This document shows positions 12,334 to 18,352 of a DNA stretch of 64,000 nucleotides, piece by piece (within the stretch, counting starts at the first letter, position 1; every line of letters begins with the position of its first letter). Source of the DNA: Phreatobacter cathodiphilus (GTDB taxonomy: Bacteria > Pseudomonadota > Alphaproteobacteria > Rhizobiales > Phreatobacteraceae). The translations under genes and the position numbers were made by a program. A model generated the notes under the pieces. That model made no database searches, was not told the DNA's origin, and saw only the letters and a program-made list of their open reading frames with translations. The stretch is taken from the NCBI RefSeq assembly GCF_003008515.1, contig NZ_CP027668.1, positions 3,389,001 to 3,453,000 on the forward strand, in the 5' to 3' direction.

Positions 12334-12762
12334 TCAGTCCTGCGCCGCGATGTCGATCCGCCGGACGATCCTTTCGGGCTCGGGGCGGGCGAGATCGACG
12401 GAGAGGAGCCCGTTCTTCAGGTCGGCTCCCATGACCTCCATGCCGTCGGCGAGAACGAAGACCCGCTGGAACTGGCGTGCCGCGATACCGCGGTGGATGA
12501 AGTCGCGCCCTTCGGCATCGTCCATCTGGCGGCCGCGGATGAGGAGCTGATTCTCCTCCACCGTCACCTCGAGCTGCTGGCGGGTGAAGCCGGCGACGGC
12601 GAGGGTGATGCGAAGGCGTTCAGGCCCCTGGGTCGATGCGGCGATCCGCTCGATATTGTAGGGCGGATAGCCCTCGGCCCCCTTGGTGACCCGGTCCAGC
12701 ACCCTTTCCAGCTGGTCGAAACCCAGCAGGAACGGCGACGACAGGGATGGCACGCGCGACAT
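12334..12762 (-). CDS. Hsp20/alpha-crystallin family small heat-shock protein
   Basis: A 142-residue ATP-independent holdase chaperone. The N-terminal arm (SPFLLGFDQLERVLDRV) and YPPYNIER lead into an alpha-crystallin beta-sandwich (LRITLAVAGFTRQQLEVTV, RDFIHRGIAARQFQRVFVLA) and the closing strand motif GLLSVDLARP. The motif YNIER before the sandwich is typical of rhizobial IbpA/HspA-type proteins. It is preceded by a near-consensus RpoH promoter and a structured leader and is followed by DUF1150, so heat induction is strongly suggested. Confidence 0.93.
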   Translation of the reverse strand: MSRVPSLSSPFLLGFDQLERVLDRVTKGAEGYPPYNIERIAASTQGPERLRITLAVAGFTRQQLEVTVEENQLLIRGRQMDDAEGRDFIHRGIAARQFQRVFVLADGMEVMGADLKNGLLSVDLARPEPERIVRRIDIAAQD

Positions 12763-12833
12763 GGGCGAAGTCCTCGTGTGAGCGACATCGGCCGGGCCCC
12801 GGAGGCACCCGGTGCGCCGGAAACCTCCGGCGC
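12763..12833 (-). promoter_or_regulatory. Structured hsp20 leader, ROSE-like RNA thermometer candidate
   Basis: The about 70-base leader begins with a perfect 8-bp hairpin (gcgccgga/tccggcgc, 12833-12814), has further GC-rich pairing (gcac-cgg-gtgc), and ends with TCGCT (12785-12781) six bases before the ribosome site GAGGA (12775-12771). UYGCU opposite AGGA is the hallmark of ROSE thermometers in rhizobial small heat-shock genes. The pairing here is imperfect, so this is a candidate only. Confidence 0.4.
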
Positions 12834-12840
12834 TTCCCGA

Positions 12841-12869
12841 ATATGGCGACGGCTCCGCCCGCTCGCAAG
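12841..12869 (-). promoter_or_regulatory. RpoH (sigma-32)-type promoter of hsp20
   Basis: On the minus strand CTTGCG (12869-12864), a 17-bp spacer, then CCATAT (12846-12841). This fits the alphaproteobacterial RpoH pattern CTTG...CCATNT. Transcription would start near 12834, just before the leader hairpin. Confidence 0.75.
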
Positions 12870-12918
12870 GTTGGGGAGGACGGAGCCGGCGAGGCCGTGC
12901 GCGGCCGTGCCGCGGGCC

Positions 12919-13995
12919 TCACGGCCCGAAGCGCTTGCCCGTCTGCCGGTCGAAGAGGTGAAGGTGCTCGGCACTCGCCGCCACCGACACGGGCGTTCCC
13001 GGCGCCAGCAGCGCCTTGCCCGGCAGGCGGGCGATGATGTCCTGCCCCGTGCCCCCGATGGGGCCGTAGACGAAGGTCTCGGCGCCCACCGCCTCCACCG
13101 CCGAGACGGGGAAGGTGATGCCGAGGGAATCCTCCGGCACGGCGCCGGTGACCACCATCAGGTGCTCCGGCCTGACACCGAGGATCGCGCCCCCCGCCGG
13201 AATGGCGAGGCCCCGCCCGCCGGTCAGCCCGTCGGCCCTCGGCCCGGCCTCACCCGCCGCCACCGGGATGAGGTTCATCGGCGGCGCGCCGATGAAGCTC
13301 GCCACGAAGGTCGAGGCCGGCGTCTCGTAGATATCGAGCGGCGCGCCGGTCTGCTCCACCTCGCCCTTGTTCATCACCACGAGCACATCGGCGAGGGTCA
13401 TCGCCTCGAGCTGGTCGTGGGTGACGTAGACCGAGGTGACGGCCAGCGCCCGCTGCAGCTTCTTGATCTCGACGCGCATCTGGATGCGGAGCTTGGCGTC
13501 GAGGTTGGAGAGCGGCTCGTCGAACAGGAAGACCTGCGGCTTGCGCACGATGGCGCGGCCCATGGCGACGCGCTGACGCTGGCCGCCGGAGAGCGCCCTG
13601 GGCTTGCGGTCGAGGAAGGGCGTGATCTCGAGGATCCGCGCGGCTTCCTTCACCCGCTCGTCGATCTCCGGCTTGGGCGTCCCGCGGTTCCTGAGGCCAT
13701 AGGCCATGTTGTCGTAGACGCTCATGTGCGGATAGAGCGCGTAGTTCTGGAACACCATGGCGATGTCGCGCTCGGCCGGCTCGAGCTCGTTCACCCGCCG
13801 CGGACCGATGCGGCACTCGCCCGACGTGATCGTCTCCAGCCCCGCGATCATGCGCAGCAGCGTGGACTTGCCGCAGCCCGACGGTCCCACCAGCACGCAG
13901 AAGGCGCCGGCCGGCACGTGGATGTCGACGCCGCGCACGGCCTCCACCCCGCCGGCATAGACCTTGCGGACCTTGTCGAGAACGACCTCGCTCAT
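12919..13995 (-). CDS. ugpC: sn-glycerol-3-phosphate ABC transporter ATP-binding protein UgpC
   Basis: A 358-residue CUT1-family ATPase that powers import of glycerol-3-phosphate and glycerophosphodiesters. It shows Walker [10 protein letters not shown] (37-45), signature LSGGQ (135-139), Walker B VFLFDEP (155-161), the switch histidine in VTHD (193) and a C-terminal TOBE regulatory domain. It is last in ugpB-A-E-C, 10 bp after ugpE. Assignment to Ugp rather than another CUT1 importer rests on gene order, protein style and the Pho box before ugpB. Confidence 0.92.
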
Positions 13996-14005
13996 CGGAA
14001 TTGCC

Positions 14006-14854
14006 TCACTTCTCGGTCTCGACCAGGCCTTTGACGAAGAGCCGCTGCATCAGGATCACCACCAGCACCGGCGGCAGCATGGCGAGCACCGCCGTGGCCA
14101 TGGCGATCTGCCACTCCGTCAGGGCGTCCTGCGTCACGATCATCTTCTTGATGCCGATGACGATGGTCTGCATGCTCTCGCGGGTGGTGATCAGCAGCGG
14201 CCACAGATACTGGTTCCAGCCGTAGATGAACTGGATGACGAACAGCGCCGCGATCGAGGTGATCGACAGCGGCAGCAGCGTGTCCTTGAAGAACTGCATG
14301 GCGCTGGCGCCGTCGATCTTCGAGGCCTCCACCAGCTCGTCGGGCACGGTCATGAAGAACTGCCGGAACAGCAGCGTCGCCGTCGCGGAGGCGATCAGCG
14401 GCACGGTCAGGCCGAGATAGCTGTCGAGCAGGCCGAGATCGGCGACGATCTTGTAGGTCGGATAGATGCGCACCTCGACGGGGAGCATCAGCGTGACGAA
14501 GATCACCCAGAAGGCGGTCATCCGGAAGGGAAAGCGGAAATAGACGATGGCAAAGGCCGAGATGATCGAGATGGCGATCTTTCCGATGGCGATGGTGAGC
14601 GCCATGATCAGGCTGTTCAGCATCATCATGCCGACCGGCTCGCGCGAGGACTTCGCGGTGCCGACGAAGATCGTCTGGTAATAGTTCTCCAGGAGATGCG
14701 GGCCCGGCACCAGCGGCATCTGGCCGTTGGAGATGGTCGCCGGATCCCAGGTCGAGGCGACGAAGGCCACATAGACCGGGAAGGCGACGATGAAGATGCC
14801 CGCGAGCAGGATCACGTGCGGCAGGAACGAGAAGATCGTCTTGCGCTCGACCAT
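14006..14854 (-). CDS. ugpE: sn-glycerol-3-phosphate ABC transporter permease UgpE
   Basis: A 282-residue permease with six membrane segments. The conserved coupling loop [20 protein letters not shown] (EAA motif, contacts UgpC) lies in its last third. The ATG at 14854 overlaps the TGA of ugpA by one base (TGATG), implying translational coupling. The long hydrophilic stretch after the first segment ([20 protein letters not shown]) is the periplasmic loop usual for this family. Confidence 0.92.
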
Positions 14855-15735
14855 CAGTACTGGACCTTGCGCTCGATGTAGCGGAACTGGATGGCGGTGA
14901 GCCCGATGACGAGGATCATCAGGATGACCGATTGCGCGGCCGATCCGCCGAGGTCGCCGCCCAGGCGCCCGTCGGAGAAGACCTTGTAGACGAGCGTCGT
15001 CGTCGCCTGGGCGGGGCCGCCGCCGGTGACCGAGTCGATGATGCCGAACGTGTCGAAGAAGACGTAGACGATGTTGACGACCAGCAGGAAGAAGGTGGTC
15101 GGCGACAGCAGCGGGAAAATGATGGTCCAGAACCGCCGCGCCGGGCGCGCCCCGTCGATGGCGGCCGCCTCGATGACGCTCTTCGGGATCGACTGCAGGC
15201 CGGCGAGGAAGAAGAGGAAGTTGTAGCTGATCTGCTTCCACGTCGCCGCCATCACCACCAGCGTCATGGCGTGGCCGCCGTTGAGCTGCGGGTTCCAGTC
15301 GATGCCGAGCGCCCGGATCGCCTGCGCCACCAGGCCGAGCGAGGGCTGGAACATGAAGAGCCAGAGCACGCCGGCGATCGCCGGAGCCACCGCATAGGGC
15401 CACATCAGGAAGGTCTTGTAGGCGCCGGCGGCCTTGATCTGCTTGTCCGCCTGCACCGCGAACATCAGCGCGATCGACAGCGAGAAGAAGGTGACGAGGC
15501 AGGAGAAGACCAGCGTCGTCAGCATCGAGCGGTAATAGTCGGGATTGGCGAACAGGACCTGATAGTTCTCGAACCAGACGAACTGCATCGTCAGGCCGAA
15601 GGCGTCCTGGATGAAGAAGGACTGCCAGACCGCCTGCGCCGCGGGCCAGTAGAAGAAGACGATGGTGATGAGGAGCTGCGGCATCAGAAGCGCGTAGGGC
15701 AGCAGCTTGCCGTCGAAGACAACGCGCTTTTCCAT
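14854..15735 (-). CDS. ugpA: sn-glycerol-3-phosphate ABC transporter permease UgpA
   Basis: A 293-residue CUT1 permease with six membrane segments and the EAA loop [20 protein letters not shown]. It forms the heterodimeric channel with UgpE. It starts 68 bp after the ugpB stop, beyond a strong hairpin with a T-run that probably lowers read-through, and its stop overlaps the ugpE start. Confidence 0.92.
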
Positions 15736-15744
15736 GCAGGTTCC

Positions 15745-15784
15745 CCGAAAAAGACGGACCGGGGCGGGTCGGGCCCGCCCCGGT
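15745..15784 (-). terminator. Hairpin with T-run between ugpB and ugpA (partial terminator)
   Basis: A perfect 11-bp stem accggggcggg/cccgccccggt with a 5-base loop (15758-15784) is followed on the minus strand by CCGTCTTTTT. It sits 18 bases after the ugpB stop and before the ugpA start. Such intra-operon stems commonly raise binding-protein mRNA over permease mRNA. Confidence 0.65.
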
Positions 15785-15802
15785 GCCGAACGTGTGGTGA
15801 GG

Positions 15803-17125
15803 TCAGCGGGTGACGGTGCGCTCGAACTGGCGCAGCATCACGTTGCCGCGCGAGACCGCTGCGTCCAGCGCCGCCTGGGCGCTCTTCTGCCCGGCCAGCG
15901 CCGCCTCGATCTCCTCGGCCCAGACGTCGCGCATCTGCACCATGTTGCCGAGGCGCAGGCCGCGAGAATTCTCGGTCGGCGGCTTGTTGTTGAGCTGCAG
16001 GATCGGCGTCTCGAGATAGGGGTTCTCGCGGTAGAAGCCGGAGGCCTTCACCTGCTCATAGGCGGCCTGTGTGATCGGCAGGTAGCCGGAGTCGGTGTGC
16101 AGCTTCGCCTGGCGGTCGGTCTGCGACAGGAAGGCGAAGAACTTGGCCACGCCGCGATATTCCGCCGCCGGCTTGCCGCCCATGACCCAGAGCGAGGCGC
16201 CGCCCAGCGTCGAGTTCTGCGGCGCGCCGGGCGCATCCGGATAATAGGGCATCGGCGCATTGGCCCAGTCGAACTTCGCGTTCGCCTTGACGTTGCCGTA
16301 GAAGCCCGACGAGGTCAGGAAGATCGGGCACTCGCCGGAGGTGAAGCGGCCCTCGCCCGTGTTGGTGCGGCCCGAATAGGAGAAGGTGTTGTCCTTCTGC
16401 AGGTCGATGAGGTTCTGCAGGTGGCGCACGTGCAGCGGCGAGTTGAACTTCAGCTCTGTGTCGAAGCCGTCGATGCCGTTGGCGCGGGTGGCGAGCGGCA
16501 CGTTGTGCCAGAGCGAGAACTGCTCGAGGTTCAGCCAGGTGATCCAGGCCGAGGAGAACCCGCACTTGTCATAGCCGGCGGCGCGCAGCTTCTTGGCCGC
16601 TTCGAACACTTCCGGCCAGGTCTTCGGCGGCTGGTCAGGGTTGAGCCCCGCCCGGCGGAAGGCGTCCTTGTTGTACCACATGACCGAGGACGACGAGTTG
16701 AACGGGAAGGACAGCATCTCCCCGCGCGACGTCGAATAGTAGCCGGCGACGGCCGGCAGATAGGCGCTCGGCACGAAGGGCTCGTTGGCCTCGGCCATGA
16801 GCTGGAACACCGGCTTGATGGCGCCGCGGGCGGCCATCATCGTCGCGGTGCCGACCTCGAAGACCTGCAGGATGTGCGGGGCGTTGCCGGCACGGAAGGC
16901 GGCGATGCCGGCGTTCATCGTGTCGGGATAGGAGCCCTTGTAGGTCGGCACGACGCGGAACTCGCGCTGCGAGGCGTTGAAGTCCTGCGCCAGCTTGTTG
17001 ACGACCTCGTTGTTGGCGCCGGTCATGGCGTGCCACCACTGGATTTCGACCTGCGCGGCCGCGGGGGTCGCGGCCATCATCGCTCCGGCAGCGGCGGCCG
17101 CGAGCATCGAACGACGGTTGAACAT
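15803..17125 (-). CDS. ugpB: sn-glycerol-3-phosphate-binding periplasmic protein UgpB
   Basis: A 440-residue secreted binding protein. The N terminus [17 protein letters not shown] ending AAA-Q is a signal peptide (with an RR pair, possibly Tat), followed by [20 protein letters not shown], the typical UgpB opening. Other family-like stretches are [20 protein letters not shown] and [20 protein letters not shown]. The ATG at 17125 follows ggaggaag. It is first in ugpBAEC and has a three-unit Pho box about 90 bp upstream, so expression under phosphate starvation is expected. Confidence 0.93.
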
Positions 17126-17215
17126 CGGAAAACTTCCTCCCAACAGACGCCTTGCGGCGGCGGTGCGGCTTGCGGCAAGGGCCGCGCCGTTCTGGGTCCG
17201 CCGGGCGACGGACGC

Positions 17216-17244
17216 GTGACACTTTAATGAAGCTTCGATGACAG
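17216..17244 (-). promoter_or_regulatory. Pho box upstream of ugpB (three tandem 7-mers)
   Basis: On the minus strand CTGTCAT-cgaa-GCTTCAT-taaa-GTGTCAC (17244 to 17216): three 7-base units separated by 4 A/T-rich bases, an exact 11-bp period. The outer two match the PhoB repeat CTGTCAT/CTGTCAC in 7 of 7 and 6 of 7 bases. No clear -10 is visible downstream. Confidence 0.75.
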
Positions 17245-17371
17245 CGTAAGAGCCTGTCTGTCGAGACGCCGGCGGGGGTTTTTCCACATCGCTGAGTGAA
17301 CGGCGTCGGCGAGAGCTGCGGTCCGAGAGTCGGGCCTCTGACCCGGAGCGCGCGCGGCGGACCGACGTCCC

Positions 17372-17848
17372 TCACGCCCGGTGATAGGGATGTCCGGCGA
17401 GGATGGTGACGGCGCGGTAGATCTGCTCCAGCGCCATGATCCTCACGAGCTGGTGCGGCCAGGTGAGGGCGCCGAAGGACAGGACGAGGTCGGCCTCGGC
17501 CCTAAGCGCCGGATCGAGGCCGTCCGGCCCGCCGACCACCAGCGTCGCGGCCTCTTCCGAGGCGTCCTTCCAGCGCCCGAGCAGCGCCGCGAAATCGGGA
17601 CTGCCCATGCTGCGTCCCCGCTCGTCCAGCAGCACGAGGCGGCCGGCGCGGGCGCGGCGGATGGCGGCGGCCTCCTCGCTCTTGCGCGCGGCGGCCTCCG
17701 GCAGCCGGCTCTCGTCGAGGGTGACGGTGTCGATGGACCGGAAGCCGAGGCCCTTGCCGGCCTTGGCGGCCCGCTCCTGGTAGCGGGCGGCGAGGTCGCT
17801 TTCGGGGCCCGCCTTGGCGCGCCCCACGGCGACGAGGATCAGCCGCAT
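17372..17848 (-). CDS. rlmH: 23S rRNA (pseudouridine(1915)-N(3))-methyltransferase RlmH
   Basis: A 158-residue SPOUT methyltransferase that methylates pseudouridine 1915 in helix 69 of 23S rRNA on the assembled ribosome. The SAM-binding knot is seen in LVVGGPDGLD (about 103-112) and SFGALTWPHQLVRIMALEQIYRA, and the C-terminal tail GHPYHRA is diagnostic. Length is normal. It follows rsfS with a 45-bp gap, the conserved rsfS-rlmH order. Confidence 0.95.
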   Translation of the reverse strand: MRLILVAVGRAKAGPESDLAARYQERAAKAGKGLGFRSIDTVTLDESRLPEAAARKSEEAAAIRRARAGRLVLLDERGRSMGSPDFAALLGRWKDASEEAATLVVGGPDGLDPALRAEADLVLSFGALTWPHQLVRIMALEQIYRAVTILAGHPYHRA

Positions 17849-17893
17849 GCCGGGCCTCCGGGCGGGGCGGAAAACGCGGGGCGCGGCTGGCTG

Positions 17894-18352
17894 TCAGCCC
17901 GCCAGCCGGTCGCCCGGACGGGCCGCGGACCACATCTTCTCGAGATTGTAGAAGCTGCGGACCTCGGGCCGGAACACGTGGATGATGACGTCGCCGGCGT
18001 CCACCAGCACCCAGTCGCAGGCCGGCAGGCCTTCGACGCGGATCTGGCCGACGCCCTTCTCCTTCAGCGCCTTCATCAGATAGTCGGCCAGCGCACCGAC
18101 ATGGCGATGCGAACGCCCGGAGGCCACCACCATCGCATCGGCGATGGAGGTCTTGCCCTTGAGGTCGATGGCCTGGATTTCCTCGGCCTTGTTCTCTTCC
18201 AAGGTGTCGAGGACGAGCTGGAGGACGTCCGCGGGAGCGGGGCTAGCCGTCGGAGTCCCGGTGGGCGACGCGCTGGCGTCCGGCCCCGGCAGGGTTGTGG
18301 TGGACAGGGTCCAATCCTCTCTGCTTCGCGCCGCGATGGGCGCCACAAGCAC
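17894..18352 (-). CDS. rsfS: Ribosome silencing factor RsfS
   Basis: RsfS binds ribosomal protein L14 and blocks subunit joining in stationary phase. The conserved core runs from VLQLVLDTLEENKAEEIQAI through GRSHRHVGALADYLMKALKE to DWVLVDAGDVIIHVFRPE and FYNLEKMW. The reading frame opens at a GTG (18352), giving 152 residues with a proline/threonine-rich N-terminal extension of about 40. The true start may be further in; no better ribosome site was found. nadD, often next to rsfS, is absent here. Confidence 0.9.
   Translation of the reverse strand: MLVAPIAARSREDWTLSTTTLPGPDASASPTGTPTASPAPADVLQLVLDTLEENKAEEIQAIDLKGKTSIADAMVVASGRSHRHVGALADYLMKALKEKGVGQIRVEGLPACDWVLVDAGDVIIHVFRPEVRSFYNLEKMWSAARPGDRLAG

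Follow-up and report, generated by a model that had tools for sequence, protein, structure and literature searches.

Pho boxes consist of 7-bp units that are directly repeated every 11 bp, and ugp genes controlled by PhoB are known from E. coli (both from an extract of PMC4415409). In Phreatobacter cathodiphilus, heptamers repeated in this manner are located upstream of ugpB. We wanted to know whether these repeats form a PhoB operator, how such an operator would drive transcription, and what the operon behind it would import. Our best reading is that ugpBAEC encodes a PhoB-dependent, phosphate-starvation glycerol-3-phosphate importer, in which PhoB binding, the response to phosphate and the substrate are all predicted. 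The analysis started from a stretch of 64,000 nucleotides, G000:C1:3389001-3453000 (the window), to which coordinates refer unless another locus is named.

The repeat array and the operon behind it

The segment at positions 17244-17216 of the minus strand reads CTGTCATcgaaGCTTCATtaaaGTGTCAC, and its 3' end is located 90 bp ahead of the ATG of ugpB (17125-17123). A first-pass annotation of this DNA had quoted the units CTGTCAT, GCTTCAT and GTGTCAC with an 11-bp period, about 90 bp before ugpB. They are present exactly as quoted, on the minus strand (the strand had not been stated), with 4-nt spacers cgaa and taaa that give an exact 11-bp period, and the 90 bp is the exact distance to the ATG. 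The count of three needs extension: the three units are real, but a fourth unit in the same register, CCGTCGC (17211-17205), had been overlooked. Judged by its sequence, the array thus appears to have four units rather than three. A Pho box is defined by at least two CTGTCAT-like 7-bp direct repeats with an 11-bp period; here, three units are clear and a fourth is weaker, all upstream of ugpB and in the same orientation, as in Pho promoters. The array lies in the 246-bp gap between rlmH and ugpB, and the gene order on the minus strand is rsfS, rlmH, gap, ugpB, ugpA, ugpE, ugpC. The features of the region are given below; type-A orthologs are the nine ugpB genes, our own included, found in 9 of the 12 genomes of the genus (G000-G005, G007, G009 and G011).

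17372-17848, minus strand: rlmH, codirectional neighbour on the upstream side (NF000989, 208.1 bits, cut-off 169)
17238-17244, minus strand: Pho unit 1, CTGTCAT (type-A orthologs: TGTCA in 9/9, first base in 8/9, last base in 7/9)
17227-17233, minus strand: Pho unit 2, GCTTCAT (type-A orthologs: CTTCA in 9/9, first base in 5/9, last base in 6/9)
17216-17222, minus strand: Pho unit 3, GTGTCAC (type-A orthologs: TGTCA in 9/9, first base in 7/9, last base in 6/9)
17205-17211, minus strand: candidate Pho unit 4, CCGTCGC, in 11-bp register with units 1-3 (CCGTC in 9/9 type-A orthologs)
17189-17194, minus strand: weak candidate -10 element, CAGAAC, 10 nt past unit 4, a spacing shared with TA-starting hexamers at predicted Pho promoters
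17136-17141, minus strand: ribosome-binding site, GGGAGG (TTGGGAGG in 8/9 aligned orthologs, our own included, and in the ninth, L089)
15803-17125, minus strand: ugpB, glycerol-3-phosphate-binding protein (NF008211, 542.6 bits, cut-off 411; 9/9 contact residues)
14854-15735, minus strand: ugpA, permease (NF007852, 379.2 bits, cut-off 335)
14006-14860, minus strand: ugpE, permease, start at 14860 or 14854 (NF008210, 400.3 bits, cut-off 297)
12919-13995, minus strand: ugpC, ATPase (NF008653, 521.7 bits, cut-off 432)

The four subunits of a UgpBAEC importer of the CUT1 type are therefore all above their NCBIfam cut-offs, adjacent and on one strand. The four transport genes have the same order as in E. 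coli ugpBAECQ. The operons differ at their ends: ugpQ is absent directly after ugpC, and the next gene on the strand is of the Hsp20 type (IbpA/IbpB-like, below the cut-off).

Nine residues that bind glycerol-3-phosphate or glycerol-1-phosphate are known in the UgpB of Phaeobacter sp. MED193, which also binds glycerol-1-phosphate (extract of PMC12718374). All nine contacts are conserved in our UgpB (Y66, E90, S145, W194, W197, S272, G309, Y348 and R399). Its best PDB match is 9lff (E 2e-139); we take the Phaeobacter protein to be PDB 9lff/9lfj, because all nine numbered residues fit the 9lff chain at one offset. In the first-pass annotation, the substrate had been called from the box. The box adds regulation to the picture, but the assignment of the substrate comes from the NCBIfam scores and the nine contacts.

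Gene calls near the sites described here were made with our own codon-usage script, trained on the genes of this genome, and not with a standard gene finder. The script placed the start of ugpB at 17080; we prefer 17125, based on the ribosome-binding site and the orthologs.

Conservation of the array and geometry of the promoter

Units 1-3 are present in all nine type-A ugpB promoters, in which the five-base cores TGTCA, CTTCA and TGTCA are invariant and the outer bases vary. The place of unit 4 is occupied by CCGTCGC or CCGTCGT, and by CCGTCAC and CCGTCAT in one ortholog each. Six genomes carry a second type of ugpB (type B, see below), and all six promoters have [CT][CT]GTCG[CT] at this place (CCGTCG[CT], CTGTCG[CT] or TTGTCGC). 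Sites were scored with unit weights based on the E. coli consensus. The weights were set before any relative was included, though with knowledge of this box, and the cut-offs were chosen later. In the 15 sequences of the genus, the fourth place scores 4.4 to 7.6, as against -1.8 to 2.8 one period (11 bp) upstream of unit 1 and at most 3.4 for a fifth place. Our own unit 4 is the weakest unit, and 2.9% of the 7-mers of the window score equally high. What speaks for it in this genome is conservation and register; on its own this putative unit is weak.

As a whole, the array scores at least 20.9 in all 15 upstream regions of the genus (nine type A, our own included, and six type B). We also screened the DNA ahead of the UgpB match (300 bp at most) in 80 named relatives (L007-L086). 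For some of these, the locus starts at an internal UgpB residue, and the actual start could lie as far as about 75 bp away. Cut-offs of 19, 20, 21, 22 and 23 were reached by 49, 43, 42, 29 and 26 relatives, respectively, versus 1, 1, 0, 0 and 0 on the opposite strand and a mean of 0.14, 0.08, 0.04, 0.02 and 0 in 50 dinucleotide shuffles. The 31 relatives below 19 include loci of Afipia, Bradyrhizobium, Rhodopseudomonas and Xanthobacteraceae, and some of these 31 retain a two-unit box, as judged by eye. The closest named UgpB (93% identity) is that of a Phreatobacter MAG (L007). We consider the relatives a fairer test of the array than pattern counts in the genome.

Conservation extends to the edges of the array. 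The sequence CTTAC (17250-17246, minus strand), directly before it, is invariant in 9/9 genus promoters, and no conserved block was found upstream of CTTAC in the genus alignment. Directly after the array, GCGGACCC (region 17187-17201, minus strand) is likewise invariant in 9/9. It is adjoined by AGAACGG, which is displaced by one base in three orthologs, and AAGAAC is also present downstream of the arrays of Bosea and Microvirga, at different distances. An inverted repeat just past the box (GTCCG...CGGAC) was considered as a second operator and rejected, as unit 4 largely accounts for its first arm.

In E. coli Pho promoters, the -10 element lies about 10 nt after the last unit and there is no good -35 element. 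The hexamer 10 nt past unit 4, CAGAAC, matches TATAAT at 3/6 positions and has CA where other sites show TA; the orthologs L093-L095 have one extra base ahead of AGAAC. Elsewhere in the genome, TA-starting hexamers are found 10 nt past a unit at the predicted Pho promoters of phnC (TAGAGC), a metallophosphoesterase gene (TAGGCA), pstS (TAGAAG and TATCCA), phoU-phoB (TAGAAC and TATTGA), a btaA-like gene (TAACCC), an SBP_bac_5 gene (TAGACG) and a DUF2158 gene (TAGGGT). Offsets 19-61 of the 30 promoter-type sites hold 17 TAs, 9 of which fall on the three offsets that are in phase (90 of 1,290 positions; binomial P 1e-8). This test was post hoc, drew its background rate from the same sites and counts positions (two each for pstS and phoU). 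By comparison, 0/3 TAs were in phase at 18 intragenic sites and 1/11 at 11 other intergenic sites. At least one in-phase TA is present at 7 of the 30 promoter-type sites, and ugpB is not among these seven. The TA phase at the other sites supports the geometry with a -10 element at 10 nt. A scan for consensus sigma-70 promoters found none. The combination CTTACG-17-TTAAAG, which would place a sigma-70 promoter over the box, was rejected: it fits poorly, and some orthologs lack TTAAAG.

We are highly confident that ugpBAEC has its PhoB operator, predicted from sequence, at 17244-17205 of the minus strand. The four-unit geometry with CAGAAC as the -10 element is, in our view, reasonably likely. 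Four head-to-tail 7-bp units with an 11-bp period would accommodate two PhoB dimers in tandem. Under phosphate shortage, PhoR would phosphorylate PhoB, and phospho-PhoB would fill the array and substitute for the -35 element. Bound there, it would recruit sigma-70 polymerase to the weak -10 CAGAAC, 10 nt past the last unit, from which the predicted start site follows. The product of the operon would then import glycerol-3-phosphate as a phosphorus source. Through PhoB binding and activation of this kind, ugpBAEC is very probably switched on when phosphate is short, as in other bacteria.

The geometry could be different. Instead of four units, the operator may have three, with an incidental unit 4 and a -10 element located 10 nt past unit 3, as TGCTAG may be in Bosea. 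TGCTA is indeed found 10 nt past unit 3 in Bosea and several relatives (e.g., L022, L030 and L039), and our own unit 4 is weak. However, the Phreatobacter hexamer at that place (CCCGGC, CTGCGC, TTTCGC or TTCGGC) is neither AT-rich nor conserved, the CCGTC of unit 4 is invariant in 9/9, and Bosea too has an in-register CCTTCAT or GCTTCAT. We regard a three-unit operator as rather unlikely.

Less likely still is that the operon is under a second, carbon-responsive control, as in E. coli, where a CRP promoter (cAMP-CRP) lies upstream of the Pho promoter of ugp (extract of PMC4415409). The 246-bp gap would offer space for it, but the failed search for a consensus sigma-70 promoter and the lack of a conserved block upstream of CTTAC both argue against it.

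PhoB and companion sites in the genome

Three-unit patterns are rare in the genome, a single contig of 4,494,445 bp. The three ugpB units with free spacers and up to three mismatches matched once, versus 0 in the reversed control and 0.016 expected from composition. The looser pattern TGTCAYN5YKTCAYN5YGTCAY, with up to two mismatches, gave seven places versus 0 reversed; the sole place with no mismatch is ugpB, an exact match that is partly by construction, as the pattern was written with the ugpB family in view. Composition (70% GC) predicts 0.001, 0.07 and 1.7 places with 0, 1 and 2 mismatches, respectively, and because 1.7 two-mismatch places are expected, the four that were found are individually not significant. 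For the two-unit pattern, we obtained 54 places versus 13 reversed and about 49 expected from base composition, of which 25 are upstream of a gene, 18 intragenic and 11 elsewhere. The two-unit scan alone is too noisy to name targets and proves little.

All seven three-unit places are located 39-130 bp upstream of a gene start, according to our own gene calls. The genes behind them are ugpB, the gene for a DUF3419 protein (the only Pfam assignment), which we take to be BtaA-like, a TIGR03308 gene in a phosphonate locus, phoU-phoB, the gene for an SBP_bac_5 protein, olsB (NF052555, 391 bits, cut-off 320) and a putative ppdK gene, presumably so from its N-terminus. In the array before the SBP_bac_5 gene (L168, G000:C1:1711816), a fourth unit-like CCGTTAC is followed 10 nt on by TAGACG. 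The array at L170 (G000:C1:4056297) is Pho-like, has three units and lies ahead of the gene that reads as pyruvate phosphate dikinase. The OlsB and BtaA-like companions fit a Pho regulon, because olsB of Agrobacterium has a putative Pho box and PhoB regulates btaAB in sinorhizobia (extract of PMC3972451). More broadly, PhoB-controlled genes or genes with a Pho box are known in Rhizobiales (S. meliloti btaAB, A. tumefaciens olsB and pgt; extracts of PMC8829014 and PMC3972451), and the btaA-like gene and olsB of this genome carry arrays of a similar kind.

A further cluster that looks devoted to organophosphorus compounds lies at L177 2600-17898 (G000:C1:625600-640898), with several of its genes named by eye. 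A metallophosphoesterase gene (SpdA-like, below the cut-off) is divergent from a CUT1 transporter with two UgpB-like binding proteins, and two opposed Pho-like two-unit boxes (626469, minus strand, and 626504, plus strand) are located between the divergent genes. Farther along are a second metallophosphoesterase, a third UgpB-like protein, PhnCDE-like genes and a GntR-type regulator.

The genome has the regulator that the array calls for. PhoB is encoded at G000:C1:1378660-1379334 and scores 342.8 bits (TIGR02154, cut-off 296.2). The best PDB matches of its DNA-binding domain are chains named PhoB (E 3e-28), which we take to be from E. coli. The RTVDVHI helix and the TVRGxGY wing are kept. One point against the assignment is that VHI in the recognition helix is followed by G here but by R in the PDB PhoB chains. 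The gene lies in phoR-phoU-phoB (L133 8244-11364), whose phoR and phoU open reading frames upstream of phoB were named by eye, without an HMM; the PhoB/PhoR pair is thus present, with PhoB above its cut-off and PhoR named by eye. The pstSCAB genes are absent between phoR, phoU and phoB, and the pst operon is located about 1.1 Mb away, at 2.50 Mb. There, PstB is above its cut-off (411.6 versus 343.2 bits), PstS matches PF12849 and is below the cut-off of TIGR02136 (164.5 versus 206.6), and PstC and PstA were read by eye. The pst operon has a Pho-like array too, of four units at most.

OmpR/PhoB-family regulators can read similar direct repeats, and the PhoB model matches 52 places in the genome, among them 16 nearly full-length regulators, PhoB included, so that the main user of the array might be another member of the family. 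We consider this very improbable, as a single place is above the PhoB cut-off and the same type of array is found at the phosphorus genes pstS, phoU-phoB, phn, olsB and the BtaA-like gene. That the repeat is a product of chance or composition, as the noisy two-unit counts (54 places versus about 49, 18/54 intragenic) might suggest, is practically negligible given the seven three-unit places versus 0 reversed and 1.8 expected, and it is refuted by the conservation in 9/9 orthologs and 49/80 relatives. The proposal of the first-pass annotation that the operon encodes a phosphate-starvation glycerol-3-phosphate importer is supported by the conserved array, the subunit scores, and PhoB and PstB above their cut-offs.

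ugpBAE in sister species and a predicted Pho regulon of Phreatobacter

Type-B UgpB, about 44-45% identical, is present in 6 of the 12 genomes of the genus. In three of these, in which type A was not found (G006, G008 and G010), type B sits between rlmH and hsp20. We compared these sister-species loci (L199, L200 and L201) with positions 12334-18352 of the window. UgpB is about 44% identical to ours, UgpA 62% and UgpE 63-64%, versus 85-86% for UgpC, 83-85% for RlmH, 86-87% for RsfS and 94-95% for Hsp20. The type-A proteins of another genus, Bosea (L026), are 72% identical to ours for UgpB, UgpA and UgpE. In G002, G003 and G009, the type-B genes are located at other places as ugpBAE, and no close ugpC was found near them in the stretches examined, which for G009 contain a 32% partial match at the far edge and for G003 reach a contig end soon after the type-B genes. 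The type-B ugpB of G003 (L204 1779-3091) is split into two overlapping open frames, by a frameshift or an assembly error.

The simplest reading of these sequences is that ugpBAE was replaced in place in the three sister species and that ugpC, the flanks and the Pho array stayed. The array at the replaced locus is identical at 35-36 of 40 positions to our own and the L007 arrays and at 30-33 of 40 to those of L095 and L091, versus 28-30 of 40 to the type-B arrays elsewhere. The leader leans towards type B (36-45 of 61-67 aligned positions versus 25-38 of 48-62 for type A), a weak difference; for G008 it is inflated, as six coding bases are common to its leader and the type-B leaders.

Type-B UgpB differs at two of the nine contacts, E90D and Y348F, in all four sequences that were aligned out of six. 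We therefore think that the ligand preference of type B may have shifted. Evenly balanced, in our judgement, is the proposal that the four-unit array behind rlmH serves as a conserved regulatory socket, where, in one lineage of Phreatobacter, a diverged, ATPase-less ugpBAE replaced the resident genes with phosphate control kept and ligand preference perhaps shifted.

The multi-unit array has a counterpart in the multi-box Pho promoter of E. coli ugp (extract of PMC4415409, citing Kasahara 1991). In literature on Pho regulons, Phreatobacter was not named among the matches listed. That the ugpBAEC array belongs to a predicted Pho regulon of this genus is supported. Together with the other sites, it suggests a local rule, in which units on an 11-bp period are followed, after 10 nt, by a hexamer starting with TA. 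This rule could be put to the test in the annotation of phosphorus genes in high-GC Rhizobiales.
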